64,000 nt of DNA from Aquabacterium sp. Its GTDB lineage: Bacteria; Pseudomonadota; Gammaproteobacteria; Burkholderiales; Burkholderiaceae_C. Below, piece after piece: positions 5,881 to 31,338 of this stretch. The stretch covers positions 1 through 64,000 of the forward strand of contig NZ_JAUSAR010000113.1 in the NCBI RefSeq assembly GCF_030652515.1, written 5' to 3'. The notes below the pieces were generated by a model. It was not told the DNA's origin. It did not search any database and saw only the letters and a program-made list of their open reading frames with translations. Numbering within the stretch: the stretch's first letter is position 1; the number at the start of each line of letters is the position of its first letter. Position numbers and translations under genes: made by a program.

Positions 5881-5886
5881 GAATGG

Positions 5887-7925: not shown

Positions 7926-9523
7926 GCTTCGGCACTCCGGCCCTTCATGGCAAACAAACCTTGGGGACGCTTCTGGATGAAGACGACGATGAACATCAGC
8001 ACCATGATCTTGGCCAGCACCGCACCGGTCCAGCCTTCCAGCAACTTGTTGAAAATGCCCAGTCCCATGGCGGCATAGACGGTGCCCGCAATCTGACCCA
8101 CACCGCCCAGCACCACGACCATGAACGAATCCACGATGTAGTTCTGACCGAGATCAGGGCCCACATTGCCGACCTGAGACAAGGCGCAGCCAGCCAGGCC
8201 TGCGATGCCCGCACCCAGCGAGAACGCCATGGTGTCGATCCGGGCGGTGTTGACGCCGACGCAGGCGGCCATGGGTCGGTTCTGCGTCACGCTGCGCACA
8301 AACAAGCCCATGCGCGTCTTGGCGATCAGCAGGGTCATGCCCAACAGAACCAGGCCCGCGAACGCGATGATGGCCAGGCGGTTGTAAGGCAAGGTCAGGT
8401 TGCTGAGGACGTTGAAGCCGCCAGACATCCAGGCCGGGTTCTCGACCTGCACGTTCTGCGCACCAAACAGGCCGCGCACAGCTTGCATCAAGACCAGGCT
8501 GATGCCCCAGGTGGCCAGCAGCGTTTCAAGCGGACGGCCGTAGAGGAAGCGGATCACCGTGCGCTCCAGCACCGCCCCGACCAGGGCCGCGGCCAAGAAG
8601 GACGCAGGCACGGCCGCGAGGATGTACCAGTCGAAAGCACCGGGCAGGTACTCGCGGAACAGGTTCTGCACCGCATAAGTGGCGTAGGCGCCGATCATCA
8701 TCAACTCGCCATGGGCCATGTTGATCACGCCCATCAGGCCGTAGGTGATGGCCAGGCCCAGCGCCGCCAGCAGCAGGATGGAGCCCAGGCTGATGCCGGT
8801 GAACAGCACGCCAGCGCGGTCACCCCAGGCCAGGCGGCTGGCGATGGAGTCGAGCGACTTCTTCACTTCGATCTTGACTTGCGGATCGGTTTCCACGCCG
8901 TCTTGCAGCCGCTCCATCAGCAAGGCTTGGGTCTCCGGGTCGGCGCTGGCGGCCAACTCTTGCGCAGCTTCGATGCGCTTGGCAGCGTCGGTGCCACTCA
9001 GCAAGGCCTTGGCGCGCAGGTTCTGCAGTTGGATCTTGAGCTTGGGATCGGCCTCGGCCGCCAGGGCCTGGTCGATCATGGGCAGCTTGGCTTCGTCCAC
9101 GCTCTGCGCGATGGTCTTGATGGCCTCGGCGCGCACGGCCACGTCGGGCGACAGGAGCTTGCCCACGGCCAGCACGGCCTCCAACTCACCGCTCATGCGG
9201 CCGTTGTTGGTGACGTCCTCGGCGTCTTCCGGCAAGGTGGCGGGTTGGCCGGTGGCCGCATCAAGCACCTTGTCGTCTTCAACGATGTAGGCCTTATCAC
9301 CCGACACCTTGACACTGTCGTTCAAAAGCGCCTGGACCAGGATGGGCAGGCGCGCGTCGTTCTTGGGAATGAGCGTTTGCAAGGCCTGGATGCGAGCATC
9401 GTTGTCGCCGGCCGAAACCGCATGAGCTTCCTCGGTGGTCAGTGCGCGGGCCGGGTTTGTCAGGCAAGCGATGGCGACCATCATGGCCAGCCCCAGCATG
9501 CGTGCTGCGTCAAATCGTTTCAC
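7922..9523 (-). CDS. urtB: Urea ABC transporter permease UrtB
   Basis: 533 residues from a GTG at 9523, giving the signal-like start MKRFDAARMLGLAMMVAI with cleavage after NPARA; an ATG at 9499 is the alternative start (525 residues). The first ~235 residues are the periplasmic alpha-helical domain seen in UrtB but not LivH. The rest is a LivH-type permease containing GLAITYGLMGVINMAHGELMMIGAYATY. Length matches the family. Separated from urtA by 135 nt that hold a strong hairpin, so its expression is probably attenuated relative to urtA. Confidence 0.93.
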   Translation of the reverse strand: MKRFDAARMLGLAMMVAIACLTNPARALTTEEAHAVSAGDNDARIQALQTLIPKNDARLPILVQALLNDSVKVSGDKAYIVEDDKVLDAATGQPATLPEDAEDVTNNGRMSGELEAVLAVGKLLSPDVAVRAEAIKTIAQSVDEAKLPMIDQALAAEADPKLKIQLQNLRAKALLSGTDAAKRIEAAQELAASADPETQALLMERLQDGVETDPQVKIEVKKSLDSIASRLAWGDRAGVLFTGISLGSILLLAALGLAITYGLMGVINMAHGELMMIGAYATYAVQNLFREYLPGAFDWYILAAVPASFLAAALVGAVLERTVIRFLYGRPLETLLATWGISLVLMQAVRGLFGAQNVQVENPAWMSGGFNVLSNLTLPYNRLAIIAFAGLVLLGMTLLIAKTRMGLFVRSVTQNRPMAACVGVNTARIDTMAFSLGAGIAGLAGCALSQVGNVGPDLGQNYIVDSFMVVVLGGVGQIAGTVYAAMGLGIFNKLLEGWTGAVLAKIMVLMFIVVFIQKRPQGLFAMKGRSAEA

Positions 9524-9562
9524 AGCTTGTTCCAGTCGTTTTTTAAATGAGGTGCGGCCAAC

Positions 9563-9597
9563 AAAAGCGCCCCGTTGGGTGACCCCCCAACGGGGCG
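9563..9597 (-). terminator. urtA-urtB intercistronic hairpin (partial terminator)
   Basis: A perfect 12 bp stem CGCCCCGTTGGG (9568-9579) pairs with CCCAACGGGGCG (9586-9597) around a 6 nt loop. In the minus-strand transcript the stem is followed by CTTTTG, a short T tract. Position between the binding-protein gene and the rest of the transporter operon suggests read-through control or 3'-end protection of the urtA mRNA, a common way to make more binding protein than permease. Confidence 0.75.
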
Positions 9598-9658
9598 AAC
9601 CGCTCTGCTTCGATAAATCAAGCCGCCTGGGCCACACGGCACCAGGCGGGGCCAAGCA

Positions 9659-10936
9659 TCACTTGGCTTCTGGCTCGTCCTTCTTCACGTCATTGCCGGC
9701 GATGTAAGGGCTCCAGGGTTGGGCCTTGACGGGGCCAGGTGTCTTCCAGACCACCTTGAACTGGCCATCGGCCTTGATCTCGCCGATGAACACTGGCTTG
9801 TGCAAGTGGTGGTTCTTGACGTCCATCGTGGAGGTGAAGCCACCGGGTGCCTTGAAGGTCTGGCCGGCCATGGCGGCGATCACCTTGTCGGTGTCGGTGC
9901 TCTTGGCCTTGGTCACGGCCTGGGCCCACATGTTGATGCCGATGTAAGTGGCTTCCATCGGGTCGTTGGTCAAAGGCTTGTCCTTGTGGCCAGCGATGTT
10001 CTTGGCCTTGGCATAGGCGGACCACTTCTTGATGAACTCGGCGTTGGTCGGGTTCTTGATGGACATGAAGTAGTTCCAGGCGGCCAGGTGACCAACCAGG
10101 GGCTTGGTGTCCACACCGCGCAATTCTTCTTCACCCACCGAGAAAGCCACGACCGGCACGTCCGAGGCCTTCAGGCCCTGGTTGCCCAGTTCCTTGTAGA
10201 AAGGCACGTTCGAGTCGCCATTGATGGTCGAGACCACGGCGGTTTTCTTGCCGGCGGCTGCGAACTTCTTGATGTTGGCGATGATGGTCTGGTAGTCCGA
10301 GTGACCGAAGGGGGTGTACTCCTCCATGATGTCCTCGTCCTTCACGCCCTTGGACTTCAGGAAGGCGCGCAGGATCTTGTTCGTGGTGCGGGGGTAGACG
10401 TAGTCGGTGCCCAGCAGCACGAAGCGCTTGGCGCTGCCGCCGTCCTTGCTCATCAGGTATTCGACGGCCGGGATGGCTTGCTGGTTGGGCGCGGCGCCCG
10501 TGTAGAACACGTTCTTTTCCAGCTCTTCACCTTCGTACTGAACGGGGTAGAACAGCACGCTGTTCAGTTCCTTGAACACCGGCAGCACCGACTTGCGGCT
10601 CACCGAAGTCCAGCAGCCGAAGGTCACGGCGACCTTGTCCTGGCTGATCAGTTGCTTGGCCTTTTCAGCGAACAGGGGCCAGTTGGAGGCCGGGTCAACG
10701 ACCACAGGTTCCAGCTTCTTGCCCAGCAGGCCACCCTTGGCGTTGATTTCATCGATGGCCATCAGGGCCACGTCCTTCAGGACGGTTTCCGAGATGGCCA
10801 TGGTGCCCGACAGCGAATGCAGAACGCCGACCTTGATCGTGTCGGCGGCATGGGCCAGGGAACCGACGAGCAGGCCAGCCACGCCCAAAGCGACGGCCGT
10901 CAGCGATTGGGTGGCATTGCGACGAGAAATGTTCAT
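9659..10936 (-). CDS. urtA: Urea ABC transporter substrate-binding protein UrtA
   Basis: 425 residues. Start ATG at 10936 is supported by AGGAG seven bases upstream and by the signal sequence MNISRRNATQSLTAVALG with cleavage after SLAHA; the Arg-Arg pair could suit Tat, but Sec is as plausible. Mature protein begins ADTIKVGVLHSLSGTMA and has the UrtA-specific FGCWTSVSRKSVLPVFKELNS and FYPVQYEGEE motifs, which separate it from leucine-binding LivK. Periplasmic receptor that binds urea and delivers it to UrtBC. First gene of the operon; its upstream region carries an inverted repeat at 11016-11033. Confidence 0.96.
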   Translation of the reverse strand: MNISRRNATQSLTAVALGVAGLLVGSLAHAADTIKVGVLHSLSGTMAISETVLKDVALMAIDEINAKGGLLGKKLEPVVVDPASNWPLFAEKAKQLISQDKVAVTFGCWTSVSRKSVLPVFKELNSVLFYPVQYEGEELEKNVFYTGAAPNQQAIPAVEYLMSKDGGSAKRFVLLGTDYVYPRTTNKILRAFLKSKGVKDEDIMEEYTPFGHSDYQTIIANIKKFAAAGKKTAVVSTINGDSNVPFYKELGNQGLKASDVPVVAFSVGEEELRGVDTKPLVGHLAAWNYFMSIKNPTNAEFIKKWSAYAKAKNIAGHKDKPLTNDPMEATYIGINMWAQAVTKAKSTDTDKVIAAMAGQTFKAPGGFTSTMDVKNHHLHKPVFIGEIKADGQFKVVWKTPGPVKAQPWSPYIAGNDVKKDEPEAK

Positions 10937-11015: not shown

Positions 11016-11045
11016 ATACGCCACATGGCGTATCGGTGGCGTACT
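11016..11045. promoter_or_regulatory. Inverted repeat upstream of urtA (candidate operator)
   Basis: ATACGCCA-CA-TGGCGTAT at 11016-11033 is a perfect 8+8 bp inverted repeat with a 2 bp spacer. A third half site TGGCGTAC follows at 11036-11043, in direct repeat with the second arm, 11 bp on. It lies 80 bp before urtA and 40 bp before the divergent gene at 11073, so it could control either. Geometry suits a dimeric regulator such as a LuxR/NarL-type response regulator; the one encoded at 13551-14510 is the nearest candidate (inference). Confidence 0.6.
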
Positions 11046-11072: not shown

Positions 11073-11813
11073 GTGCCTCCGCAGTCCCCCTCCATCCACA
11101 AAAACCGGCAGACCCTGTCGCTGAGCCTGGACTCACCCTTGATCCAGAGCTGCATGCGGCGCAATGACCCCAACGCGCTGATCCTGGACTACACCCGGGC
11201 GATGATGGGATTCCTGCTTTTCAAGCCACAGCCCGCGTCCATGCTGATGATTGGCCTGGGCGGCGGGTCGGTGCCCAAGTATTGCCACCTGCATTTGCCC
11301 GGCGCCGACATCACCACCGTCGAGATCAACCCGGATGTGATCGCGCTGCGGGATGAGTTCCTGATCCCGACGGACAACGAGCGCTTTCGGGTGATCTGTG
11401 CCGATGGGGCGGCTTTTGTGGCGCAAACCCAGCGACGCTATGACGTGCTGATGGTGGACGGTTTCACGGGCGAAGGCCAGCCCGAGGCCCTGTGCTCGCG
11501 CCATTTTTACGACGCCTGCCAGGCCGCGCTGAGCGACGAAGGCATGCTGGTGGTCAACCTGCATGCCGAAATGCCCCGCTGTGGCGAGCTGACCCAACGC
11601 ATCGAGCGGTGCTTTGGCGGTCACGCGGTGTCGGTGGCCACCGACGATGGCGACAACTGCGTCGTGCTGGCCGGGTTGGGCCCTGCTTTCGCCCGTTGCC
11701 GCGTCGCCTTTGAAGAGCGCTGGGCGGCATTGTCCGCAGCGCATCAGCAAACCCTGGGCGCCTGCTCCAGCCGCATTGAGCGTGGCTTGATCAAGCGCTA
11801 TCCGGCTGTGTGA
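11073..11813 (+). CDS. Spermidine-synthase-like SAM-dependent transferase
   Basis: 246 residues from a GTG at 11073. Rossmann-type fold of the spermine/spermidine synthase family: motif I is MLMIGLGGGSVPKY (about residues 57-70), the acidic end of strand 2 is TTVEINPDVIALRD, then CADGAAFV and the strand 4 stretch DVLMVDGFTGEGQP. It lacks the N-terminal beta-domain and the strict active-site sequence of true SpeE, so polyamine synthesis is not assured; the substrate is unknown. Probably cytosolic. Divergent from urtA and convergent with the DUF342 gene, whose stop is 1 nt away. Confidence 0.75.
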   Translation: MPPQSPSIHKNRQTLSLSLDSPLIQSCMRRNDPNALILDYTRAMMGFLLFKPQPASMLMIGLGGGSVPKYCHLHLPGADITTVEINPDVIALRDEFLIPTDNERFRVICADGAAFVAQTQRRYDVLMVDGFTGEGQPEALCSRHFYDACQAALSDEGMLVVNLHAEMPRCGELTQRIERCFGGHAVSVATDDGDNCVVLAGLGPAFARCRVAFEERWAALSAAHQQTLGACSSRIERGLIKRYPAV

Positions 11814-11814
11814 A

Positions 11815-13416
11815 TCAACCGTCCACCACCAAGGCATCCCCATCCGGCGTGGTGAACAGGACCAGGCCTTTGTCGATGGAAAAGTAGCCGATGTCGTAAG
11901 TGCGGCGCAAGCGGCGCTGCGTCTTGCCGAAGGCCAGGTCGACCGCACCCGACACCCCCGCGCCAATCTCGACGCGCGCGTTGCCGAACAAGGCCATCTG
12001 CTTTTCCAGATCGTCCTTGCGCACCAGCAACAAGCCCAGGGCCTGCAGCGCCTGAGCCCAGGTGGAGCGCACCCGGTCCAGCACACCCGTCTTGTCGCCC
12101 TGCCGGGTCAGGTGCTGAACCAGCTTGCTGAGGTTTTCCTCTTCCTGATTCTGCTTGGCGATCAAGCCCAACACCTCCTGGTATTCGGCCTCCAGTGCCG
12201 GATTAACGCCCACCAGCACCTGGGTGACGGTGCTGGCCGAATCGCCCAGCAAGGGTGTGCGGATGAGCATCATGGCGCGGGCAGAACCGCCCACCAGACG
12301 CCCGCGCTGGGGCGACTGCGTGCCCACGATGATCTGGTTGCCGGCTTGCAACTGGCTTTGCAACGCCATGCTGTCGATCGCAATGCCGACACCGGCGTCA
12401 ACGCTGGAATTTTCAATGAACCGGGCCGACACCGAATCGCCTGCGCGCGCACTGGCGTGGGCAATGATGCCGCCGCCCACCCGGATGCTGCCCCCCGCCT
12501 CCAGGTGCCCACCATCCACGGTGCCCGTCACAATGATGTCGCCGCTGGCCTGCACTTTCATGCCCGTGAGGACATCGCCTTCAATCTGCACGGTGCCATC
12601 GAACGCGATGTTGCCCGAAGCCATGCTGGCGCCATTGAAGAACACCACCTTCTCAACCATGACACCATCGCCCACGCTCACGGGCTGTCCGGTGAACACG
12701 GCGCGCAGCAGCCTGGGGTCTTGCGGATCCACCTTGGCGCCGGGCAGTTCGGTCGCGAAAGCCACCGCTTGGCCGCGGACCGGCTCCAACACCTCGGCGC
12801 GGATGTTGCGGCCCAGGAAGCCCACGGTTTCAGGGATGATTTTCATCAAGGGCTGATCGGCCTCGACCACGGGGATGTCGCCCAGCTCCCGGAAGTCGAT
12901 CAGACCGTTCTCGCCCACCTTGGGCCGACGGTCGCGCGTGACATCGACCAACATCTCGAAGCGGGCGGTTTCGCCATTGCGAGCTGGTTTGCCCTGGGCG
13001 GCCACCACACGGCCCCCTGCGGGCGAGGCGCACACTTGCTGCAAGGCGGCCTCGTCAACGCCAAACACCACACCTGCCTGAGCGAAGGCCTGCACCATGT
13101 CGTTCAGATTCAGCAGGCTGCCCCCCCGCGCTGGCGTCACCGTCACCCAGGCACACATGGCATCGGGCGCGATTTCAAGTTCAAAGCTGGCGTCTCGCCG
13201 CTCGGCAACCAACACCTTGAAAGTCTCTTCGCTGGCGCATCGGCTCACCGCTTGTTGCAGTTCGTCGTCCAGCAAAAACCAATGGGCATGCCCGGCTTGG
13301 GCAATCAAGTCCTTTGCCGCATCCACACTCAAGGCGGGGCGGTTGGGCATCGGTCGGTGGTGCAACCAAAGCTGCCCGTCGGCCTCGATCAGATCAACAC
13401 CGGGAAAACCCGACAT
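11815..13416 (-). CDS. FapA family (DUF342) protein
   Basis: 533 residues. The central half (about residues 170-390) is the polymer-like beta-helix of DUF342/FapA proteins: repeated Gly-rich turns such as VFFNGASMASGNIAFDGTVQIEGDVLTG and SGDIIVTGTVDGGHLEAGGSIRVGGG. A helical segment around 415-480 could form a coiled coil. In Vibrio, FapA influences flagellar pole signalling, but most DUF342 proteins have no known role. It follows the response regulator by 134 nt on the same strand, so it may be co-regulated. No signal peptide. Confidence 0.8.
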   Translation of the reverse strand: MSGFPGVDLIEADGQLWLHHRPMPNRPALSVDAAKDLIAQAGHAHWFLLDDELQQAVSRCASEETFKVLVAERRDASFELEIAPDAMCAWVTVTPARGGSLLNLNDMVQAFAQAGVVFGVDEAALQQVCASPAGGRVVAAQGKPARNGETARFEMLVDVTRDRRPKVGENGLIDFRELGDIPVVEADQPLMKIIPETVGFLGRNIRAEVLEPVRGQAVAFATELPGAKVDPQDPRLLRAVFTGQPVSVGDGVMVEKVVFFNGASMASGNIAFDGTVQIEGDVLTGMKVQASGDIIVTGTVDGGHLEAGGSIRVGGGIIAHASARAGDSVSARFIENSSVDAGVGIAIDSMALQSQLQAGNQIIVGTQSPQRGRLVGGSARAMMLIRTPLLGDSASTVTQVLVGVNPALEAEYQEVLGLIAKQNQEEENLSKLVQHLTRQGDKTGVLDRVRSTWAQALQALGLLLVRKDDLEKQMALFGNARVEIGAGVSGAVDLAFGKTQRRLRRTYDIGYFSIDKGLVLFTTPDGDALVVDG

Positions 13417-13550: not shown

Positions 13551-14510
13551 TCAGCGCATTTTCAGCTGTCCCACCCGGCTCATGGCCAATCCGGCCGCCG
13601 CCGTGCGGGTCTCGACCCCCAGCTTGGCGAAAACATGCTCCAGCTGCTTTTTGACGGTGGCCGGGCTGGTGCCCAGGATGTCGCCGATGTCGCGGTTGGT
13701 CTTGCCCTTGACCACCCAATAGAGCACCTCGCCCTCCCGGGCGGTGAGCTTGAGTTCCTGGGTCAGCGCTTCGATGGCGGCCTCGTCCGAGGTCTCGCGC
13801 ATCACCAGCAGCCAGTTGTCGTCGCCCGTGGGTTCGTGCAGCGCAAAACTCAGGCGTCGGCCTGCCTGCTGCACCAGCCAGGGCGGTGGAGGCTTGCCGG
13901 TGGCCATGTCGGCCAGGGCGCTGGGCGTGACCTGACGCAGCCAGACCACCAACTCGTCTGGAGCCACCGTCTCGGGCGTCTCGAAATACTGCTGCAGGAG
14001 CTTGCGGGCCAAGGGCGTCTGCCACATCACCCGGCCATCCGACAGGCGGACCGTCATGGAGGCGTGGCCAAAGGCATCCAGGGCATTGCGCGCCTGGCGC
14101 GCCTGCCGGGCGCTGGCCATGTGCGAGACGATGCGGGCCAGCACTTCCCGGGGCCGGATCGGCTTGGTGACGTAATCCACGCCACCGGCTTCAAAGGCGG
14201 CCACCACGTGCTCGGTCTCGGTCAGGCCGGTCATGAAGACGATGGGGATGTGGCTGGTTTCGGGCTGCGCTTTCAGGCGCCGCGCCACCTCGAAGCCATC
14301 CATGCCGGGCATCAGGGCATCGAGCAAGATGATGTCGGGCACCGATTGGCTGGCGCGCTGCAGGGCGGCTTCACCATGCGTGGCAACCAGCACGGTGTAG
14401 CCCGCCTCGTCCAGCGCGTCGTGCAGCAGGGAGAGGTTGTCGGGCACGTCGTCCACGATGAGCACGACATCGGTACGGCTGCGGTCGAGTCGGTCAAGCA
14501 TCGGGATCAT
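13551..14510 (-). CDS. Response regulator, REC plus LuxR-type HTH
   Basis: 319 residues. Receiver domain at about 14-130 with acidic pair D20-D21, phospho-acceptor D64 in LLDALMPGMDG, the conserved Thr in VFMTG and Lys in YVTKPIRP. A middle region of about 110 residues links it to a LuxR-family helix-turn-helix at about 250-313 (LTAREGEVLYWVVKGKTNRDIGDILG, then SPATVKKQLEHVFAKLG). The ATG overlaps the stop of the NCS1-kinase gene (ATGA), so it is almost certainly that kinase's cognate regulator. Target promoters are not known; the urt and ure promoters close by are the obvious guess. Confidence 0.92.
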   Translation of the reverse strand: MIPMLDRLDRSRTDVVLIVDDVPDNLSLLHDALDEAGYTVLVATHGEAALQRASQSVPDIILLDALMPGMDGFEVARRLKAQPETSHIPIVFMTGLTETEHVVAAFEAGGVDYVTKPIRPREVLARIVSHMASARQARQARNALDAFGHASMTVRLSDGRVMWQTPLARKLLQQYFETPETVAPDELVVWLRQVTPSALADMATGKPPPPWLVQQAGRRLSFALHEPTGDDNWLLVMRETSDEAAIEALTQELKLTAREGEVLYWVVKGKTNRDIGDILGTSPATVKKQLEHVFAKLGVETRTAAAGLAMSRVGQLKMR

Positions 14511-17500
14511 GGCCGCGATTGTGCATGGAACTGCACCAGGGCCCGCTTGACGGCATCAGCCAGGGCGTCCAGCTGGAACTGCCTGGCCAGGTGGCGCATG
14601 TGCTGCACGAATGCTTCGCATTGGGGTTCGGCTGCCGCGATCTGGTCCAGCGTTTTGTGCACACCGCGCACGTAGCCGGCGTCGATCAGCTCTTCGAGGC
14701 TTTGCAAGGCCTTGAGCGATGGCAGCACTTGCGTGCCTTCGACCGCCCCTTGCGCGACCATGTCCAGCATGGGTTGCTTGACCGCGGGGCGCTGCGCCTC
14801 GATCCACTGCAAGGTCAGGCGCCGCCCCAGCCAGTCCAGCAACTCGCTCATGCGCACGGGCTTGACGATGAAGTCATCGAAAGTGATGCCCACGTCGTTG
14901 TCCATGCCCTTGTCAAAGGCATTGGCCGACACGATGGCGATGGGCGCGCGGCTCAAACCTTCTTGCTTGATGGTGCGGATCGTGGTCCAACCGTCGATGC
15001 CGGGCATGGCCAGGTCCATCAACACGGCATGGGGCTCTTGCGCCTGGGGGCAGCTGCGCAGCAAAGACAGGCATTCCACGCCCGAGGCCAGCGGGGTCAC
15101 GTCAAACCCCAGGGGTTCGAGGATGCGCACCAGCAGGCCGCGGTCGGCCTCTTCGTTGTCCACCACCCAGACACGACGGCGATCACCCACATAGCCGGTG
15201 CGCACGCCCAAGGGCACCGATCGGTCGGCGTGCGTCAGACGCACCTGAGGCAGGAACAGGCGGATGCGGAAGACCGTGCCCTGCCCTTCCACGCTGCTCA
15301 CCTTCATCTCGCCGCCCATCAGATCGGTCAGCATTTTGCTGATGGTCAGGCCCAGGCCGGTGCCCGCCACCACCGAGCCCGCCACCGATGAACCACGTGC
15401 AAAAGGCTCGAACACCCGCTCCAGCTCGTCGATCGGGATACCCGGCCCCGTGTCGATCACCTCGACCAGGGCGATCTCCCGCGCGTAGCTGACGCGGAAT
15501 TTCACGCTGCCTTGCGAGGTGAACTTCACCGCGTTGCCCAGCACATTGAAGAGGATCTGGCGCACCCGCCGCTCATCGGCGCGCACCACTTCAGGCAGGG
15601 CCGCGTCCAGCTCCACGTCAAAGATCAAGCCTTTGCTCAAGGCTTGTGGCTGCAGCATGCTGATGATCTGCTGCAGGGATTCGAACAGACGCATGGGCTT
15701 GACGTCCAGCGTCAGCTTGCCGCTTTCGATGCGGGCGATGTCCAGCGTGCCTTCGATCAATGACAACAGGTGGTCGCCACCGCGCTTGATCACCTCCACG
15801 CCGTGCTTGGCGTGCGCGGGCAGGCGCTGGTCTTCGTCCAGCAATTGCGCATAACCCAGGATGCTGTTGAGCGGTGTGCGCAGCTCGTGGCTGATGGTCG
15901 AGATGTAGCGGCTCTTGGCCTGGTTGGCCTGCTCGGCGGTTCGCTTGGCCTGCTGCAGTTTTTCATCGGTGCGGCGGTGCAATTCCACCTCGCGCACCAG
16001 CAGATGCGTCTGGCGGTTGGACTCTTCTTGCGCCACTTTGCGGCTTTTGTGCGCCAGCACCAGCCACCAGCCCACCACGCCCGAGATCACCAGCAGCACC
16101 GCGAAGACCTTGAGGAAACCGCTTTGCAAGGCCTCGATCAAGCCCACCGTGGCCGGTTGGTCCAAGGCGCGCAATTCGTGGTTGAAGATCAGGGCGAACA
16201 GCAGCGCCAGTGTCGGCACCAATGCGCCCATCAACAGCATGAAATGGCCCAGCTCGGTGTCCAGGTGGCGCCAGACGAAGGGCGGCAACAGCTTTTGCCC
16301 CACCGCCCGCCACTGCACCGACCAGCGCGCCTCGGGCTTGCACAGGTCGTGGCAGCGCGCGTCCAGCGAGCAGCACAATGAGCAGATGAAGCCCTGGTAG
16401 GCCGGGCAATGGGCCATGTCTTCGCCTTCGTACTCGCGCTCGCACACGGTGCAGCGGTAAACGCCTTTCATGCCTTGCCGGGATGGGCAGGTGTCGCAAC
16501 TGGGGGCCTTGGGCTCGGCCTGGCGGGCGATGTAATAGCGGCCCTGGGTGAACCAGGCGATCAGCGGTGAAGTGATCAAGGCCGTGACCAGCGCGATCAG
16601 TGCGGAAAACGCCTGCGCCATCGGCCCCAACCACCCCAGGTAGGCCGTCACCGACAGGATCGAGGCCGCGCTCATGGCGCCCACACCCACCGGGTTCACG
16701 TCGTACAAATAAGCGCGCTTGAACTCGATGCCTTTGGGCGACCAGCCCATGGGTTTGTTGATGACCAGGTCGGCCACCACCGCCATCATCCACGCGATGG
16801 CGACGTTGGAGTACAGGCCCAGCACACGGCCCAGGGCCTGGAACACGTTCAACTCCATCAGCATCAAGGCAATCATGATGTTGAACACCACCCACACCAC
16901 GCGCCCGGGGTGGCTGTGCGTGATGCGCGCGAAAAAGTTGGACCAGGCCAGCGAGCCCGCGTAGGCATTGGTGACGTTGATCTTGAGCTGCGAGATGACC
17001 ACGAACAGGCAGGTGGCCGCGACCGCCCAGCTCAGGTTCGAGAACATGGTCTCGTACGCCAGGAGGTACATCTGGTTGGGATCGACCGCGCGGTCGGCGG
17101 GCACCGACAGGCTCAGCGCCAGGTAGGCCAGCACCGTGCCGCCCAGCATCTTGAGCACGCCCGGGATCACCCAGCCCGGCCCACCCATGAACACGTTGAA
17201 CCACCAGCGGGCCTTGTGTTTGGGCTGCTGCTCGGGCATGAAGCGCAGGTAGTCGGCCTGCTCGCCCATCTGCGTGATCAGGGCCACGCCCACCGTCATG
17301 GCCGCGCCAAAAGACATCAGGTTGAAACCGGGGGCCTGCCCTTGCGCACCGCCATAGCCCACCAGGTCGCTCAACACATGCGGGTTCGCCTTGAACACAT
17401 AGATGTAGGGCAGCACCAGCATCACCAGCCAGATCGGTTGCGTCCACACCTGCAACCGGCTGATGACGGTGACCCCGTGCGTGACCAGCGGCACGACCAC

Positions 17501-18067
17501 CACCGCGCAGATCAGGTAGCCCCAGGCGGGCGGGATGTCGAAGGCCAGCTCCAGCGCGTAGGCCATGATGGCAGCCTCCAGCGCGAAGAAGATGAAGGTG
17601 AAGGTGGCGTAAATCAGCGAGGTGATGGTGGAGCCGATGTAGCCAAAGCCCGCCCCGCGCGTCAACAGATCCATGTCCACGCCATGGCGCGCCGCGTACA
17701 CGCTGATCGGCCAACCGGCCAGCAAGATGATCAAACCCGTGGCCAGGATGGCCCACAAGGCGTTGATGAAACCGTGCTCCACCATCAAGGTGGCACCCAC
17801 CGCTTCCAGCACCAGAAACGACGCCGCGCCGAAGGCCGTGTTGGCCACGCGCCATTCGCTCCATTTCCGGAAAGACCGGGGGGTGAAGCGCAGGGCGTAG
17901 TCTTCCAGCGTCTCGCTGCCGACCCAGGTGTTGTAGTCGCGCCGCACCTTGACCACGCGCTGCAGGGCCTGGTCTCCCAGCAAATCGGCGGAAGACTCGC
18001 CTTCGGCGGCGGGCGGGCCATCAATACGCCGTTCGGCGGCTGGACTCATTTGGCGTGTGTCTTGCAT
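14507..18067 (-). CDS. Hybrid histidine kinase with N-terminal NCS1 permease domain
   Basis: 1,186 residues from ATG at 18067. Order: (a) residues about 45-510, a complete NCS1/purine-cytosine-permease-like transporter of 10-12 membrane spans; (b) about 522-580, a Cys-rich knuckle with CDTC, CTVC, HC, CSLCC and further Cys, suggestive of metal binding; (c) two more spans near 609-632 and 652-672; (d) coiled linker and HisKA with H727 in SHELRTP; (e) HATPase with N box [16 protein letters not shown] and GTGLGL; (f) receiver with D1018 in [11 protein letters not shown]; (g) a C-terminal helical tail without a clear HPt His. Divergent from ureA (52 bp apart) and coupled to the response regulator. 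Inferred to sense a nitrogen compound or its flux; ligand unknown. Confidence 0.93.
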
Positions 18068-18119: not shown

Positions 18120-18422
18120 ATGGAACTGACCCCACGAGAGAAAGACAAGCTGCTGATCTTCACGGCCGCCCTGCTGGCCGAGCGCCGGAAGGCACGGGGA
18201 CTGAAGCTGAATTACCCGGAAGCCGTGGCCCTGATCACCGCCGCCATCATGGAAGGCGCCCGCGATGGCAAAACCGTGGCCGCCTTGATGAGCGAAGGCA
18301 AAACTGTGTTGAGCCGTCACGACGTGATGGATGGCGTGGCCGACATGGTGCCTGAAATCCAGGTGGAAGCGACCTTCCCGGATGGCACCAAATTGGTGAC
18401 CGTGCACCAACCCATTGCTTGA
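18120..18422 (+). CDS. ureA: Urease subunit gamma
   Basis: 100 residues, exactly the size of UreA. Begins [23 protein letters not shown] and contains the conserved [24 protein letters not shown] and [33 protein letters not shown]. Structural subunit of the cytosolic (UreABC)3 nickel enzyme that hydrolyses urea to ammonia and carbamate. Divergent from the permease-kinase. No ureD is found upstream, unlike most related urease operons. Confidence 0.97.
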
Positions 18423-18442
18423 GATCATTCAATCAGCCCTGA

Positions 18443-18463
18443 ATTGCACCAATAAAGTGCAAT
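18443..18463. promoter_or_regulatory. NtrC-like box between ureA and ureJ
   Basis: A perfect 7+7 bp inverted repeat ATTGCAC / GTGCAAT with a 7 nt spacer CAATAAA. Its core TGCAC-N7-GTGCA has the spacing and half sites of NtrC sites (TGCACC-N5-GGTGCA), with one mismatch in the inner G. It lies 36 bp before ureJ, inside the operon. No sigma-54 promoter was found next to it, so it may act at a distance, or simply be an RNA hairpin. Confidence 0.5.
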
Positions 18464-18498
18464 CAAACCCATCCACGTCCCAGCCTGGATTCAAGAAC

Positions 18499-19167
18499 AT
18501 GCCGAAAATCTCTTTCCGTCGCACCATTCTGGTCTGCGCTCCCTGGGCCACCGGCCTGGCTGTGGCCACCTTGACCTCCGTGGCGCAAGCCCACGTGGGT
18601 GCCGATGGCCTGGCCCACCACCACGGTGCCTTTGACAGCTTCACGGCGGGCGCCGCCCACCCCTTGACGGGATTGGACCACCTGGCCGCCATGGTCAGCG
18701 TGGGCTTGTGGAGTGCCTTGAGCCTGGGGGGGCAATCGACCTCATCCGCCAGCGCCAAGCGCCTTCTCTCCGCACCGCTGGCGTTTGCGGCCACCTTGCT
18801 GATCGGCGCCTTGATGGCGCTCAATGGCGTCACCCTGCCCGGCGTTGAACCCATGATCGCGGCCTCGCTGCTGGCCCTGGGGCTGCTGGTGGCCACGCGC
18901 ACTGCATTGCCGACCGGCGTGGGCGCTGCCCTGGTGGCCGGTTTTGCCCTCTTCCACGGATTGGCGCATGGCCAGGAGCTGGGCGGCCACGCCAGCGCCG
19001 CACTCACCGGCATGGTCTTGAGCACCATGGCCCTGCACACGGTCGGCATCGGCTTCGGGCTGGCTTTGGGCCAACAACGCAGCCGCTGGCTGCCGCGCAT
19101 CGCAGGCGTCGGTGTCGCCGCCTTGGGCCTTGGACTCTTGAGCCCCGCCATCGCTGGCGTGTTCTGA
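18499..19167 (+). CDS. ureJ: HupE/UreJ family nickel permease
   Basis: 222 residues with a cleavable-type signal ([19 protein letters not shown], ending SVAQA) and then about six membrane spans. The HupE/UreJ signatures [18 protein letters not shown] and [11 protein letters not shown] supply His residues thought to handle nickel. Inner-membrane nickel transporter feeding urease. Location between ureA and ureB, 11 nt before ureB, supports UreJ. The start was chosen from the signal sequence; the frame is open further upstream but that stretch is not conserved-looking. Confidence 0.9.
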
Positions 19168-19178
19168 GGAGCGCCACC

Positions 19179-19484
19179 ATGATCCCTGGCGAACTGCTCA
19201 CCGATGGCCCCGACCATCCCATCAACCCCGGCCGCCGCACCATCACCCTGGTCGTTGAGAACGCGGGCGACCGCCCCATCCAGGTCGGCTCGCACTACCA
19301 CTTTGCCGAGACCAATGGCGCCCTGAGCTTTGACCGCCAAGCCGCGCACGGCATGCGCCTGAACATCGCCTCCGGCACCGCCGTGCGCTTCGAGCCCGGC
19401 CAGCAGCGCACCGTCGAACTGGTCGACTACGCTGGCGAGCGCATCGTCTACGGATTCCGCGGCCTGGTTCAAGGCCCGCTCTGA
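19179..19484 (+). CDS. ureB: Urease subunit beta
   Basis: 101 residues, the normal length for bacterial UreB. Hallmarks are [38 protein letters not shown], the Arg-rich [21 protein letters not shown] and the [11 protein letters not shown] end. Second structural subunit of urease. GAGG-type ribosome site (CTGAGGAGCG) sits just before the start. 27 nt separate it from ureC. Confidence 0.97.
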
Positions 19485-19511: not shown

Positions 19512-21239
19512 ATGGCCACCATCCAACGGCGTGCCTACGCTGAAATGTTCGGCCCCACCGTGGGCGACCGCCTGCGCCTGGCCGACACCAACCTCATCAT
19601 CGAAGTCGAGCAAGACCTGACCTTGGCAGCTGGAGGCTATGGCGAAGAAGTCAAGTTCGGCGGCGGCAAAACCATCCGCGATGGCATGGGCCAAAGCCAA
19701 CGCATCAATGGCCCTGGCGCCATGGAGGCGGCCGATTGCGTGCTGACCAATGCCCTGATCGTGGACCACTGGGGCATCGTCAAGGCCGACATCGGCATCA
19801 AGGCCAGCCGCATTTTCAAGATTGGCAAAGCGGGCAACCCCGACGTGCAACCTGGCGTGGACATCGTCATTGGCCCCGGCACCGAGATCATCGCGGCCGA
19901 AGGCATGATCGTGACGGCTGGCGGCATCGACACCCACATCCATTTCATCTGCCCGCAGCAGATCGAGGAAGCGCTCAACAGCGGCGTGACCAGCATGCTC
20001 GGTGGCGGCACCGGCCCGGCCACGGGCACCTTCGCCACCACCTGCACGCCTGGGCCGGACAACATCTCGCGCATGCTGCAAGCGGCCGAGGCTTTCCCGA
20101 TGAACCTGGGCTTTCTGGGCAAGGGCAACGCCAGCCGCCCCGAGGCCTTGCGCCAGCAGGTCGAGGCTGGCGTGATCGGCCTGAAGCTGCACGAAGACTG
20201 GGGCACCACGCCCTCGGCCATCGACTGCTGCCTGAGCGTGGCCGAAGAGACCGACACCCAGGTCTCGATCCACAGCGACACGCTGAACGAGTCGGGCTTC
20301 GTTGAAAACACCATCGCGGCCACCAAGGACCGCACCTTGTGCGCCTTCCACACCGAAGGTGCTGGCGGCGGCCACGCGCCCGACATCATGCGCGTGGTGG
20401 GCGAGGCCAACTTCCTGCCCTCGTCAACCAACCCGACCATGCCCTACACGGTCAACACCATCGACGAGCACCTGGACATGCTCATGGTGTGCCACCACCT
20501 GGACGCGTCCATCGCGGAAGACCTGGCCTTCGCCGAAAGCCGCATCCGCCGCGAAACCATCGCCGCCGAAGACATCCTGCACGACCTGGGCGCCATCAGC
20601 ATGTTCAGCTCTGACTCGCAGGCCATGGGCCGTGTGGGCGAAGTCATCATGCGCACCTGGCAGACGGCGCACAAGATGAAGTCGCAACGCGGCGCCCTGC
20701 CCGGCGATTCCGATCGCAATGACAACACGCGGGTGAAACGCTACGTGGCCAAGTACACGATCAACCCAGCTTTGTCGCATGGCATCGCGCACGAAGTGGG
20801 CAGCATCGAAGTGGGCAAGTGGGCCGATCTGGTGGTGTGGAAGCCCGGGTTCTTCGGCATCAAGCCCAGCCTGATCCTCAAGGGCGGTTTCATCGCTTCA
20901 GCGGCCATGGGCGATCCCAACGCCTCCATCCCCACGCCGCAGCCGGTGCACTACCGGCCCATGTTCGGCGCCTTTGGTGGCGCGCTGGCGCGGGGCTCGC
21001 TGACCTTCATGAGCCAGGCTGCCATCAATGCGGGCATGCCCGAGCAATATGGTTTGAAGAAGCAAGCCGTGGGCGTGCGGGGCAACCGCAGCGTCAAGAA
21101 GGCCGACATGATCCACAACCACTATCTTCCGGTGATGGAGATCGACGCGCAAACCTACCAGGTGCGCGCAGATGGGCAGTTGTTGACCTGCGAACCGGCC
21201 ACCGTGTTGCCGATGGCGCAGCGGTACTTCTTGTTCTGA
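19512..21239 (+). CDS. ureC: Urease subunit alpha (catalytic, Ni-binding)
   Basis: 575 residues. All active-site residues are present at a constant offset of +8 from the Klebsiella enzyme: H142 and H144 (THIHF), carbamylated K225 with H227 (GLKLHEDWG), H254, H280 ([13 protein letters not shown]), flap C327-H328 (VCHHLD) and D368 ([12 protein letters not shown]). It hydrolyses urea at a di-nickel centre in the cytosol. The frame is intact. It is followed, convergently and 1 nt away, by a PEP-CTERM gene rather than by ureE, which lies 5.8 kb downstream. Confidence 0.98.
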
Positions 21240-21240
21240 C

Positions 21241-22026
21241 TCAGACCACCCGCGATTGGCGAGCGCGAGCACGCCAGGCCACCATGCCCAGGCCCGCGGC
21301 CACCAACAGGTAGGCCGAGGGTTCTGGCACATTGCCGGAGTTCAGAGACACCTGGCTGTTCGACGTCAGGGTGACCCCAAGGTTCTGGTATTCGTTGCTG
21401 TAGTTCACGTAAGCGATCCTGGCCGTGTCAGTGTAAGAGTTCGACGCCGTCGACGCATTGGCACTGATGCCTTTGTAGTAGCTCGCGATGCCTGAGTAAG
21501 GTGATGAGGTTTGGTAGTTGTCCCGCCTCACTTCCACGTAGGCAGCAGACGAGGCCGAGCAAGTGAGTTGTGACTCGGTGCAGTTGACTTGCGCCGACAA
21601 TTCGATGTCAGCTGAAATCAGCAACATGGTGTTGGGTGCCAGCCGGATGTTGCCGTTGTAGACGTTGGGGCGGACCATCGCCCACGCGCCATCTTCGATC
21701 GTTCCACTCCCCGACACCGAGGTTTGAAGCGACGTTGCCGTCGTCTGTGCAAGGTAGCCCGCCCCACTCACCGAAGTGTTGGCCAAAAAGGCGTTGCTTG
21801 ACTGGCCATCCCTGGTGGCGTAGTACTGGCTATACAGCACGCGGGTCGACCCCCCGCTCGCCAACACCTCAAACGAGGCGGCCACGCCATCGCCTGGCGT
21901 GAGGTCAACGGCTGCCAAGGACAGGTTCGTGAACCGCGAGTAAGCTGTTCCGGTATTGGCATGCACCGCACCCGCCAGCATCGCAAACGTCAGCGCGGAC
22001 ATCTTCAAGCATTGAACTTTTTTCAT
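21241..22026 (-). CDS. PEP-CTERM sorting-domain protein
   Basis: 261 residues from ATG 22026, which has GGGAGA six bases upstream. Signal peptide MKKVQCLKMSALTFAMLAG (cleavage near VHA), a Ser/Thr-rich beta-type body, and a C-terminal PEP-CTERM tag: NVPEPSAYLLVAAGLGMVAW followed by RARARQ. Such proteins are sorted by exosortase, usually with exopolysaccharide export; no exosortase gene is in the window. Two Cys in NCTESQLTC may form a disulfide. Body function unknown. Its codon use and Ser/Tyr-rich composition differ from the urease genes flanking it. Confidence 0.85.
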   Translation of the reverse strand: MKKVQCLKMSALTFAMLAGAVHANTGTAYSRFTNLSLAAVDLTPGDGVAASFEVLASGGSTRVLYSQYYATRDGQSSNAFLANTSVSGAGYLAQTTATSLQTSVSGSGTIEDGAWAMVRPNVYNGNIRLAPNTMLLISADIELSAQVNCTESQLTCSASSAAYVEVRRDNYQTSSPYSGIASYYKGISANASTASNSYTDTARIAYVNYSNEYQNLGVTLTSNSQVSLNSGNVPEPSAYLLVAAGLGMVAWRARARQSRVV

Positions 22027-22075
22027 GAGTTTCTCCCAGTGATTGGTTGATTTGGAAATGGCCACTGCAATATAT

Positions 22076-22215
22076 CGCGCAACTGCGGGCTCATCGGATT
22101 CCTCAAGGCCGCCCAAGCAAACCGGGCAGCCGCCTCGCTGGCCCACGACCTGTTCCTGTTCGGCTTCGCGGCCACGGTGTTCATGCTGACGGAAAGCCAA
22201 GCACCTAAGCAATGG
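22076..22215 (+). pseudogene. Possible truncated membrane-protein remnant
   Basis: The 293 bp gap between the PEP-CTERM and DUF72 genes has no intact gene. On the plus strand a frame reads CGLIGFLKAAQANRAAASLA then HDLFLFGFAATVFMLTES, which looks like the C-terminal transmembrane part of a small DUF2834-like inner-membrane protein, without a start codon. It is short and the family guess is weak, so it could also be chance. Confidence 0.25.
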
Positions 22216-22319
22216 CGGCAGCGCATCCCAGGAGTGCAGGTCGTGGGCGTGTCCAACCCAGCCACCTGGTGCAGCACCATGTCCTTTTCTGAGGGGAAGG
22301 AAGCTGCGGCTCATTGTGG

Positions 22320-23102
22320 TCAAGGCCGTGGTTGCGGGTCAATGCCGAACCATGGCGAAGTCCCTCGCTCGAACAGGTTCGTTAACTCCAGCGCATTGAA
22401 GGTCGCCGCGCCCAGGGCGGTGTTATCAAAAATACACCAGACCGACTCAAAGCTCAGGGCATCCTCGTGCAGCCGGTGAGCCAGGGCTTGCAGATAGCCC
22501 GCGTCGTAGTTGTCGTAGTAGATGCGAGGCGAACCATGCAAGCGGTAATAGGCGATCCGGGAAGCAACATCACCACCGGCCAAAGGCCAAGCTGCGCCAG
22601 CGCAAGGCGCCGGATCGGCCAAGACCCGATCGATGCGATGCCGCGCCAGCAACGCTGAGCCTTGTTCACCGAACCAGCTCGCATGCCGGGGCTCGATCAC
22701 CACGTGTCCCTCATGCCGTGCGCGCAGCATGGCGAAGAACACATCGGCCCGGTTTGGATCGAGTGCCAGACTCGGCGGCAACTGGACCAAGAGACAGCCC
22801 AGCTTATGGCCCAATTGCCCGACTTCCAGCAAAAAGGCACCGAGCAAATCCTGGCAATCCACCAGACGGCGCTCGTGCGTGATGGCTTTGGGCACCTTGA
22901 CCGAAAACCGAAAATCTGACGGCACGCTGGCCGCCCACCGCGCGTACGTGGCAGGCTTGTGGGGCCGATAAAAGCTGGAGTTGATCTCGACGCCTGAGAA
23001 ACGGCTGGCATAGCGCTCAAGGTGGCTGCCCTCCGGCGCGAACAATCCCTGCGCCTCCTTGGGCAAGGCCCAGCCCGCACAGCAGATGCGGTACGCGCTC
23101 AT
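22320..23102 (-). CDS. DUF72 domain-containing protein
   Basis: 260 residues from ATG 23102, one base beyond the fbpC stop. DUF72 (YecE-type TIM barrel) hallmarks: start RICCAGWALPKEAQG, then LERYASRFSGVEINSSFYR, RFSVKVPKAITHERRL, the CLLVQLPPSLALD strand, VVIEPRHASWF, YYRLHGSPRIYYDNY and IFDNTALGAATFNALEL at the end. Function of the family is not established. Probably co-transcribed with fbpC, but no functional link to iron transport is known. Confidence 0.9.
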   Translation of the reverse strand: MSAYRICCAGWALPKEAQGLFAPEGSHLERYASRFSGVEINSSFYRPHKPATYARWAASVPSDFRFSVKVPKAITHERRLVDCQDLLGAFLLEVGQLGHKLGCLLVQLPPSLALDPNRADVFFAMLRARHEGHVVIEPRHASWFGEQGSALLARHRIDRVLADPAPCAGAAWPLAGGDVASRIAYYRLHGSPRIYYDNYDAGYLQALAHRLHEDALSFESVWCIFDNTALGAATFNALELTNLFERGTSPWFGIDPQPRP

Positions 23103-23103
23103 G

Positions 23104-24189
23104 TCAAAGCCCGTCACCCGGCGGAAACACGATGAGGTGATCCATCTCCAGGCGCACGCCGATGGATTCGTCGAGCGCATGGTCATGGTGTGAAGGCACC
23201 ATCGACAGCACCCTGGCGCCACTGGGCAGCTCCAGTGTGTAGAGGATCTCGGCCCCCCGGAAAGCCTTGTGTTTCACCAAAGCCCGCACCGTGCTGGCAT
23301 CGTCGTGGACTACGTCATCGGGCCGCAACAACACCTCCACCGGACTGTCGGGTGCGCACGGCGCCAGGTCATTGGCGTAGCAAATGGGCCCGGGTGAGAT
23401 CACATCGCCCAGTTCAATGCCCAAGCATTGCGCATCGCGCACCCGGCCCGACACGAACACCCCCTGCCCGATGAAGTCGGCAACGAAACGACTGCGGGGC
23501 CGGTGGTACAGGTTGTAAGCCGTGTCGATTTGCTGGATGCGCCCGTGATCCATCACCACGATCTGATCGGCCATGGCAAATGCCTCGTTCTGATCATGCG
23601 TGACGAACACCGCTGTGGTGCCCGTCGCTTTCAGCACACCACGCACCTCGGCGGCCAGTTGCTCACGCAAGGCCACGTCCAGGTTGGAAAAAGGCTCGTC
23701 CAGCAACAGCAAGCGTGGCCGAGGCGCCAAGGCCCGGGCCAAAGCCACCCGCTGCTGCTGCCCCCCGGACAGCTCATGCGGAAAGCGTTTGGCGGCCGAG
23801 GCCAGGCCCACCGTGTCCAGCCATTGCCGCGCCGTTTGAAGTGTTTCCGCCCCGCCCTTCAAGCCAAAGGCCACATTGCGTTCAACGCTCAGGTGAGGAA
23901 ACAGGGCGTAGTCCTGGAACACCATGCCGATGCGCCTGCGCTCAGGGGGCACATGCCGCCCCTGCCCGCTGACCACGTCGCCCTCCATGCTGATCGACCC
24001 CGCCGTCAGGCGCTCGAAGCCGCCCACACACCGCAGCACCGTGGTCTTGCCGCAGCCTGAGGGGCCCAGCAAACAGCAGATGTCTCCTGCAGCGACCGAC
24101 AGGCTCAACTGCTCAACGGTGGGCTGGCCCTCATAGGCGTGGTGGATGCCGTGCAACGCCAGCGATGGATGGGGTGTTGAATGAGTCAT
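23104..24189 (-). CDS. fbpC: Ferric iron ABC transporter ATP-binding protein
   Basis: 361 residues from ATG 24189 (a codon four positions upstream could also start). Walker A GPSGCGKTT, Q-loop VFQDYALFPH, signature LSGGQQQRVALARAL, Walker B LLLLDEPFSNLD and H-loop VTHDQNEAF, followed by a C-terminal TOBE-like regulatory region from about residue 240. Same family as FbpC/PotA/CysA; the FbpA and FbpB homologues beside it indicate ferric iron. Transcribed away from fbpB, with only 31 nt between their starts. Confidence 0.9.
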   Translation of the reverse strand: MTHSTPHPSLALHGIHHAYEGQPTVEQLSLSVAAGDICCLLGPSGCGKTTVLRCVGGFERLTAGSISMEGDVVSGQGRHVPPERRRIGMVFQDYALFPHLSVERNVAFGLKGGAETLQTARQWLDTVGLASAAKRFPHELSGGQQQRVALARALAPRPRLLLLDEPFSNLDVALREQLAAEVRGVLKATGTTAVFVTHDQNEAFAMADQIVVMDHGRIQQIDTAYNLYHRPRSRFVADFIGQGVFVSGRVRDAQCLGIELGDVISPGPICYANDLAPCAPDSPVEVLLRPDDVVHDDASTVRALVKHKAFRGAEILYTLELPSGARVLSMVPSHHDHALDESIGVRLEMDHLIVFPPGDGL

Positions 24190-24220
24190 ACAGGGCGGCA
24201 CCTTACACTAGCCCGCATCC

Positions 24221-25870: not shown

Positions 25871-25871
25871 T

Positions 25872-26897: not shown

Positions 26898-26943
26898 GAG
26901 CTTTGAGGCCGGTTGGCGTCCAATTTGTTCTTCAAAAATAATA

Positions 26944-26963
26944 ACAGCAATGATTCTTATTTG
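26944..26963. promoter_or_regulatory. Candidate Fur box before fbpA
   Basis: The AT-rich stretch ACAGCAATGATTCTTATTTG resembles Fur sites (the core CAAATAAGAATCATTG on the fbpA strand is typical of AATAAGAATCATT-type half sites). It lies 47-66 bp upstream of fbpA and 41-60 bp upstream of ureE, so a bound repressor could affect both directions. It is a visual match only. Confidence 0.5.
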
Positions 26964-27003
26964 AGGAACATGGGTGTCACGTTTTTTGCTTACCATTGAG
27001 CCC

Positions 27004-31283: not shown

Positions 31284-31338
31284 GGCGGGACACATTCAGT
31301 CCAGACCAACGCAGTCTGCCTGATTTTGACGATGGGGG

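Follow-up and report, generated by a model that had tools for sequence, protein, structure and literature searches.

The subject of this account is a gene within a 64,000-nucleotide stretch of DNA from Aquabacterium sp. (positions 1 to 64,000 of contig NZ_JAUSAR010000113.1, assembly GCF_030652515.1; the whole stretch is termed the window below), whose product joins an NCS1-type permease to a hybrid histidine kinase in one chain of 1,186 amino acids (14507–18067, minus strand; open reading frame (ORF), Pfam, AlphaFold2 (AF2) and Foldseek evidence). The frame is uninterrupted from an ATG at 18067 to the stop codon at 14507, with no internal stop, and an alternative in-frame GTG at 18163 would give a sensor protein of 1,218 amino acids. 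From the N-terminus the chain comprises a membrane domain of NCS1 fold at approximately residues 39–516 (16520–17953; AF2 model, Foldseek, and hhalign to a CodB-type NCS1 profile), an eight-cysteine knuckle at residues 539–576 that is a putative metal site (16340–16453; cysteine conservation and AF2 model), and two further transmembrane spans at approximately residues 605–671 (16055–16255; AF2 helices 574–603 and 610–658 in the numbering of the modelled fragment, to which 31 is added to give protein numbering). There follow, all by Pfam, HisKA at residues 717–783 (63 bits; 15719–15919) with the phospho-acceptor motif SHELRTP at residue 726, HATPase_c at 831–939 (94 bits; 15251–15577) and a receiver, Response_reg, at 966–1078 (56 bits; 14834–15172), the three domains that define a hybrid histidine kinase; these segments, too, are all on the minus strand. 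The Pfam scan gave no match in the window protein before residue 717, no match to a PAS domain within it, and none in the linker between permease half and HisKA, where whether Pfam holds a STAC model was left unchecked.

The stop codon of the kinase gene overlaps by 4 bp the start of the gene for its cognate response regulator, of LuxR type (NarL/FixJ type; 13551–14510, minus strand; Response_reg and GerE by Pfam). On the other side ureA (18120–18422, plus strand; TIGR00193) begins with an ATG at 18120, head to head with the sensor gene across a gap of 52 bp, and beyond the regulator lies urtA (9659–10936, minus strand; TIGR03407, 584 bits with a cut-off of 493). The continuous fusion of these parts, the coupled LuxR-type regulator and the back-to-back arrangement with ureA had all been described in the first-pass annotation of the window and are borne out. 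Its placing of the sensor between urea transport and urease genes holds insofar as urtA–E and ureA, B, C and G score above their NCBIfam cut-offs, but the regulator is not adjacent to urtA, two other ORFs being interposed (11073–11813, plus strand, and 11815–13416, minus strand). At least 22 of 37 genomes of the genus have two paralogues, one 69–97% identical to the window protein and the other approximately 50–55%; since the architecture is conserved in both groups, it is not a product of chance.

The sensor half and its relation to NCS1 permeases

Direct comparison with the Pfam family of NCS1 transporters, PF02133, yielded no match to the window protein even at E 1, none to 15 sensor halves at E 10, and none in a search of the window's own genome, while solved structures searched by sequence with the sensor half or with profiles gave a single chance-level match to a zinc protein (E 2.6). 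The NCS1 label is given because of a PF02133-matching homologue, a profile–profile comparison and the predicted fold. Among relatives that stand alone, without a kinase, two match PF02133 above its cut-off of 23.5 bits (L163 with 31.8 and L198 with 36.4 bits) and L169 does not; the match of 31.8 bits is that of a stand-alone homologue found by the sensor profile at E 4.6e-171. When 88 family sequences together with L198 were compared by hhalign with CodB and eight PF02133 members, the probability was 99.2 (local mode), in a single comparison whose E-value is indicative only and whose alignment is remote (17% identity), so that single positions are uncertain. The register relative to CodB used below is that of hhalign, an alternative by MAFFT that put a 5-residue gap in transmembrane helix 8 (TM8) not being used. 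The AF2 model of the sensor half, built on 88 family members, has a mean predicted local distance difference test score (pLDDT) of 92.2 and a predicted template modelling score (pTM) of 0.92, and its five best Foldseek matches in the PDB are all NCS1 proteins, CodB (7qoa) and Mhp1 (4d1a, 2jln, 2x79), at 14–18% identity, E 2.8e-9 to 4.4e-7 and template modelling scores by target of 0.68–0.76. The first sodium/solute symporter appears only at rank 6, and the domain is not one of SLC5 type. The initial description of this half as an NCS1 transporter is thus upheld by fold and by indirect comparisons, but lacks a direct PF02133 match.

In the model the knuckle is formed of small strands and one helix, and each of its eight cysteines is kept in at least 87 of 88 aligned family sequences. 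The last span is one helix that continues towards the kinase to the end of the modelled fragment, which, in a monomer model, suggests direct mechanical coupling of that span to the kinase.

Linkage to urea and formamide genes

A search for this architecture across genomes, with attention to co-occurrence with urt and ure genes, had been the course first recommended, and it found the linkage and a formamide context besides. In all, 190 distinct sensor ORFs, many of them close relatives and including 80 named loci that were picked by closeness to the window, were scored by tblastn with the window's Urt and Ure proteins, its regulator and one FmdA, a UrtA being counted as close at 60% identity or more. 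The surroundings comprised ure genes in 54, ure genes together with a close UrtA in 41, a close UrtA in 11, a distant UrtA with FmdA in 52, a distant UrtA in 5, FmdA in 4 and none of these in 23. From the class and phylum samples all matches were fetched except two fragments (G098 and G644): there, 62 of 70 kinase-bearing ORFs are linked to urea or formamide genes and 8 are not. Of the copies flanked by 5 kb or more in each direction, 58 of 59 are linked (the exception is L216), with a distant UrtA and FmdA at 36, ure at 7, ure and UrtA at 6, UrtA at 5, FmdA at 3 and a distant UrtA at 1. The linkage is seen in many families of two classes, in both urea and formamide contexts.

Gene order is conserved as well. 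A regulator gene lies within 300 bp on the same strand at 173 of the 190 loci, and is adjacent in 65 of the 70 kinase-bearing copies of the class and phylum samples; among opposite-strand matches, 80 of 90 to UreA are head to head with the sensor and no more than 650 bp from the start of the sensor domain, and UrtA-like genes are within 820 bp in 56 of 67. At the level of whole genomes of the phylum sample, UreC is present in 50 of 54 that have the sensor (it is missing from G470, G602, G632 and G644) versus 94 of 344 that do not, an odds ratio of 33 with p 1.2e-20, uncorrected for kinship or genome size. Two of those without UreC, G470 and G602, carry sensors of the formamide type (L228 and L238).

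Relatives of the sensor are found across Pseudomonadota. Matches to the sensor half occur in 28 of 150 order-sample genomes (one match being a weak fragment), 19 of 369 class-sample genomes and 54 of 398 phylum-sample genomes, some of the latter two sets being fragments or distant stand-alone relatives, and a scan of named genomes, of which the best 80 of at least 571 places were taken, found it in Aquabacterium, Rhizobacter, Variovorax, Hydrogenophaga, Acidovorax, Zoogloea, Azonexus and others. Two loci, L080 and L214, have two sensor ORFs each. A sensor-half match is also present in 525 plasmid records, 342 of them from Klebsiella and 306 predicted to be conjugative, the presence of the kinase having been checked for pBVIE02 only; in those listed with a gene name, the sensor is called ‘ATP-binding protein’, hybrid sensor kinase or ‘response regulator’. 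Plasmid pBVIE02 of Burkholderia vietnamiensis G4 (L319), typed as conjugative, has a formamide-type locus surrounded by transposases in which genes for an amide ATP-binding cassette (ABC) transporter of HAAT type, a formamidase, an FmdB-family protein and a nitrilase diverge from those for the hybrid kinase and a LuxR-type regulator. In Sinorhizobium meliloti Rm41 the replicon pSymB encodes a sensor half that shares 80% identity with the Rhizobium type, next to urtA–E-like genes and a regulator, and the sensors of family f237 are 80–89% identical to the Rhizobium and Sinorhizobium copies.

On a tree of 114 sensor halves, made by a quick method and with 38 of 111 inner branches weak, the context labels cluster. 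Urea contexts are found in the window's own clade, in f237, in other families of the same class (L249–L251, L261 and L263) and in L252/L031, and the last three of these groups nest within formamide-type branches; the urea/formamide label needs to change 5 times on this first tree (96 labelled rows) and 4 times on a second (71 labelled rows). The two contexts therefore interchange, and the receptor would most simply be one that binds small amides, a single type serving both.

The sensor half is not confined to a hybrid kinase. It is followed by PAS-GGDEF-EAL in L215, by PAS-PAS-HisKA-HATPase-receiver in L216 and by kinases without a receiver in L203, L204 and L257; the L215 (7352–11026) and L216 (9023–12838) copies are in the same genome, G197, in which no urease was found. 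Relatives without a kinase adjoin formamidase genes, ureABC with a nickel transporter gene, or CN-hydrolase genes: L169/L200 is a permease with the full cysteine knuckle next to FmdA, L163/L201 a permease with a shortened knuckle beside ureABC and a NicT-like gene, and L198, a more distant PF02133 member, adjoins CN-hydrolase and Peripla_BP_5 genes. Stand-alone members of the clade in such amide and urea neighbourhoods are probably transporters, and as L169/L200 has the full knuckle without a kinase, the knuckle presumably predates the fusion.

A palindrome upstream of urtA, and the surrounding genes

Approximately 80 bp upstream of the urtA start codon (10936) lies the palindrome TACGCCA-CA-TGGCGTA (11017–11032), of general form TACGYCA-NN-TGRCGTA, which is proposed as an operator. 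Of 42 dereplicated gaps that separate the sensor from UrtA-like genes, 23 contain the dyad TACGT-N6-ACGTA, with a maximum of 3 in 20 shuffles. Counting matches of at least 11 of 14 to TACGTCA-NN-TGACGTA within 900 bp, a site precedes the sensor at 34 of 52 loci with a distant UrtA and FmdA, 4 of 5 with a distant UrtA and 2 of 4 with FmdA; the figures are 1 of 11 with a close UrtA, 5 of 54 with ure, 3 of 41 with ure and UrtA, and 1 of 23 unlabelled. At urea loci, the variant TACGCCA-NN-TGGCGTA, or in f237 the TACGT form, is instead upstream of urtA. Of the 52 close urtA genes at sensor loci, 46 are preceded within 500 bp by a site that matches at 12 or more of the 14 positions; among 1,860 random 530-bp segments taken from these loci, the background is 36.

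Association with the sensor is also apparent in the order sample, in which 40 of 150 genomes have urtA and 30 of these were examined (G908, with urtA at the start of a contig and no upstream DNA, was left out): a site precedes urtA in none of 20 genomes without the sensor versus 3 of 9 with it, namely the window genome, G167 and G889 (p 0.023). In G167 and G889 it is there although sensor and urtA are not neighbours. Within the window there is one site at up to 2 mismatches, and it is exact, 19 of 100 shuffles also having one at that laxness; pBVIE02 has a single site, with 1 mismatch, which lies between the sensor gene and those of the ABC transporter (8826–8841 of L319), and with up to 2 mismatches allowed, one or more sites arise in 28 of 200 shuffles. 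A different, weak dyad, CGTGCC-N2-GGCACG, occurs between sensor and ureA in 4 of 69 dereplicated gaps, against at most 2 after shuffling.

Operators of TACGT form pair with a regulator helix that has R, N and H at positions 30, 33 and 35 in 27 of 27 read helices, whereas for the TACGC form the 27 helices read have A (17), K (18) and Q (14) at these positions; this is no proof, as helices were read only in regulators that matched a pattern (27 of 49, 27 of 45 and 30 of 79, the others being dropped) and the sets differ in phylogeny.

The remaining transport genes, urtB (7922–9655, start uncertain), urtC (6783–7925), urtD (5887–6786) and urtE (5176–5880), follow urtA on the minus strand (5176–9655) and score above their NCBIfam cut-offs, as do ureB (19179–19484) and ureC (19512–21239) on the plus strand. 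An ORF on the same strand between ureA and ureB (18415–19167) encodes a membrane protein with no NCBIfam match at E 1e-20, which we take to be HupE/UreJ-like. Further downstream (26974–29020, plus strand) are two genes presumed to be ureE and ureF, which are conserved together with the urease set, and ureG (28376–29020; TIGR00101). The urease operon is interrupted between ureC and ureE (21241–27275) by genes for a PEP-CTERM protein (21241–22323), a DUF72 protein (22320–23222) and an ABC transporter (ATPase 23104–24201, permease 24221–25870, binding protein within 25872–27275), the transporter set (23104–27275) being presumably of iron type. While ureD is often part of the urease operon, here it is on another contig of the genome (PF01774; C55:50489–51109). 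After ureG, on the opposite strand, are eutC and eutB for ethanolamine ammonia-lyase (29116–31295). At the other end, positions 1–3700 of the window show a pronounced AT skew along with long, repetitive reading frames on the plus strand, and may be part of a large repetitive minus-strand gene that leaves the window.

Ligand, proposed mechanism and known transporter-kinases

The residue roles in CodB and Mhp1 considered here are those given in the accessible portions of PMC9379551 and PMC4195764, counts are over 88 aligned rows, and residues of the family are numbered as in the modelled fragment, K331 and E133 being Lys362 and Glu164 of the protein. The NCS1 core is retained, with CodB Gly29 of TM1 corresponding to G49 (kept in 87 of 88) and with an Asp and an Arg of TM6 invariant (88/88). 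At the sodium site the Thr278/Thr279 pair of TM8 is replaced by K331 (88/88) and I332 (87/88); the aligned stand-alone members of the clade likewise have Lys or Arg at the place of Thr278, so that the lysine is a feature of the clade and not of the fusion. The aromatic sandwich of CodB, Trp108 and Phe204, is not preserved: the first place is F129 (Phe in 81 and Leu in 7 of 88), and the second, L232 (85 Leu, 2 Met, 1 Phe) or I233 (no aromatic in any of the 88), is non-aromatic in all but one row. The place of Mhp1 Gln121 is an invariant E133 (88/88), and Q235, E238, Q239, D241 and R244 around the TM6 break and N333, N336 and Y338 of TM8 are also invariant. Comparison with known substrate-binding residues, which had been suggested at the outset, thus finds the core retained but the ring-stacking aromatics changed. 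At fragment position 298 (residue 329), Asp is present in 35 of 36 urea-context rows versus 6 of 35 in formamide context, where Glu predominates (17 of the 88 rows, lacking a usable label, were left out); as a specificity residue this is a lead only, there being 3–4 independent tree contrasts and a sign test that is not significant.

The likely explanation of the locus is a transporter-derived receptor for urea or short amides that acts via its regulator on the uptake operon. The NCS1-type permease half would have been retooled to bind a small amide, urea here and formamide or other short amides in the sister operons. Ligand in the permease cavity would cause the permease domain to rock, and we infer that this movement would travel by way of the knuckle and the final two helices to the kinase. 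The kinase would set how far the LuxR-type regulator, product of the overlapping gene, is phosphorylated, and that regulator would bind the palindrome upstream of urtA and switch on urea uptake.

Several observations weigh against this explanation, most of them to do with the palindrome. There is no clear site at 6 of the 52 linked urtA genes (L144, L249, L250, L251, L261 and L263), and in six of the nine sensor-bearing order-sample genomes urtA is without one, G043 being of formamide type and the others having sensor and urtA on different contigs. In the window's own genome the site is the sole exact match, but places with up to 1 mismatch number 3 versus 5 for a reversed control pattern; as near-matches are not in excess of the control, it is conservation and position, and not rarity, that speak for an operator. 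Nor does the palindrome support control of ureABC, being absent from the window's 52-bp gap between sensor and ureA and present within 900 bp upstream of the sensor at only 8 of 95 ure-labelled loci. Formamide-type loci lack the site in 18 of 52 cases, and with 13 of these in f234 and f224 the operator of those families, if any, differs. No Pfam match to an Hpt domain was found in the window protein, whose internal receiver may be a relay or a brake. In 23 of the 190 copies the flanking sequence examined has no urea or amide gene, and G197 has two copies of the module and no urease found.

It is these unlinked copies that a general nitrogen-status kinase, placed beside urea and amide genes by accident, would account for, and homologues without urea, purine or pyrimidine genes nearby had been named initially as what would refute a local sensor. 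The outcome is mostly favourable to local sensing: 8 of the 23 have less than 1.6 kb on one side, urease alpha is encoded elsewhere in 14 of 15 genomes picked with an unlinked sensor (as partial matches in G806 and G810, the exception being G197), and with linkage across many families, two classes and both contexts, an accidental position is most improbable. Equally, very little probability attaches to a ring ligand (uracil, allantoin, hydantoin), which had been envisaged alongside urea and is usual for NCS1 transporters. The relationship of the sensor half to NCS1 would suit it, and the characterised bacterial ligands of NCS1 are, in the part of PMC13390362 available, mostly such rings. However, the linkage of 58 of 59 sampled loci is to urea or formamide genes (no search was aimed at nucleobase or hydantoin genes), the place of the second aromatic is non-aromatic in 87 of 88 rows at 232 and all 88 at 233, and the same source has MetT as an NCS1 protein that takes an acyclic compound. 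A ring ligand is not favoured, on the grounds of linkage and changed pocket aromatics, and of the local nitrogen-compound sensor first proposed it is the urea side that survives.

The eight nearly invariant cysteines, and a nickel-transporter-like gene beside one stand-alone copy (no search was aimed at metal genes), could be taken as signs of a knuckle that responds to nickel or zinc and adjusts urease. That is quite unlikely and not favoured, since copies of formamide type conserve the knuckle just as well, and so does a stand-alone permease that has no kinase. More serious, if still doubtful, is a true transceptor, with the permease half also transporting urea or an amide and the kinase reading transport or occupancy, as proposed for CbrA. 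The kept NCS1 core (G49, and Asp and Arg of TM6) and the probable transporters among stand-alone clade members are in keeping with it, as is the invariant Lys at the place of CodB Thr278, which is like K196 of CbrA, where, from what is accessible of PMC13022988, histidine is carried with protons. Against it, 48 of the 59 well-flanked sampled loci also hold an ABC uptake gene, and transport has been lost in the Amt5-kinase (PMC5764959, seen in part).

A receptor of urea or short amides would be of consequence beyond the window. Urea ranks among the main sources of nitrogen in soil and waste water, though to our knowledge the receptors described in bacteria for urea or formamide outside the cell are few. 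On balance we lean towards a widespread, hitherto undescribed class in which an NCS1 permease serves as urea/short-amide sensor, with a private knuckle and an operator of its own, and whose sensor half has moved onto other outputs. The first-pass annotation had the urea side of this and missed the formamide half, the palindrome at urtA and the alternative outputs. A literature search by titles and the openings of abstracts, mostly without subscription journals, found no description of an NCS1-fused kinase or of a two-component receptor for urea or formamide. If the proposal is true, there is an NCS1 counterpart of the SLC5-STAC receptors and a direct pathway for sensing urea and formamide, with a candidate receptor, regulator and 16-bp operator that are accessible also in species with laboratory strains.

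Operons of the formamide kind are already known. Methylophilus fmdCABDEF is alike in combining ABC uptake with formamidase and in being induced by formamide and urea, but a sensor kinase is not named for it in the text available of PMC10781810; likewise, for a Pseudomonas cluster of amiE, fmdA, fmdB and urtABCDE, formamide uptake is suggested and no sensor kinase named in the accessible part of PMC13209695. Among NCS1 proteins, CodB and Mhp1 are the best structural matches of the sensor half, alignable in TM1, TM3, TM6 and TM8, and differ in having Thr278/Thr279 in place of Lys/Ile, in the stacking aromatics and in lacking the extra knuckle and spans. MetT, a metformin transporter, is similar as an NCS1 protein for an acyclic nitrogen compound but is a stand-alone transporter; proton-driven members of NCS1 also exist (both from PMC13390362 as far as accessible).

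Fused transporter-kinases, namely CbrA, CrbS, RpuS and Amt5, are already known. The early choice of CbrA as functional analogue was apt: CbrA, CrbS and RpuS likewise have a secondary transporter and a kinase in one chain and a paired regulator of nutrient genes, and the lysine K196 that fills the sodium site of CbrA (PMC13022988, in the part available) has an aligned lysine in the window family. However, theirs is an SLC5 domain with a four-helix STAC linker, where the window protein has NCS1, an eight-cysteine knuckle and two spans; their ligands and operons are other ones, and CbrA has a PAS domain, whereas the window protein has a receiver and no PAS match. Ks-Amt5 of Kuenenia shares the use of a nitrogen-compound transporter as receptor of a fused kinase, but is of trimeric Amt fold and its regulator is not identified in the portion available of PMC5764959, in contrast to the NCS1 fold, linked regulator and candidate operator here. 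NCS1 would thus be the third transporter family, after SLC5 and Amt, among fused transporter-kinases, with a different linker that allows comparison of how transporter movement becomes kinase control; the sensor works like CbrA or Amt5 and belongs to neither.

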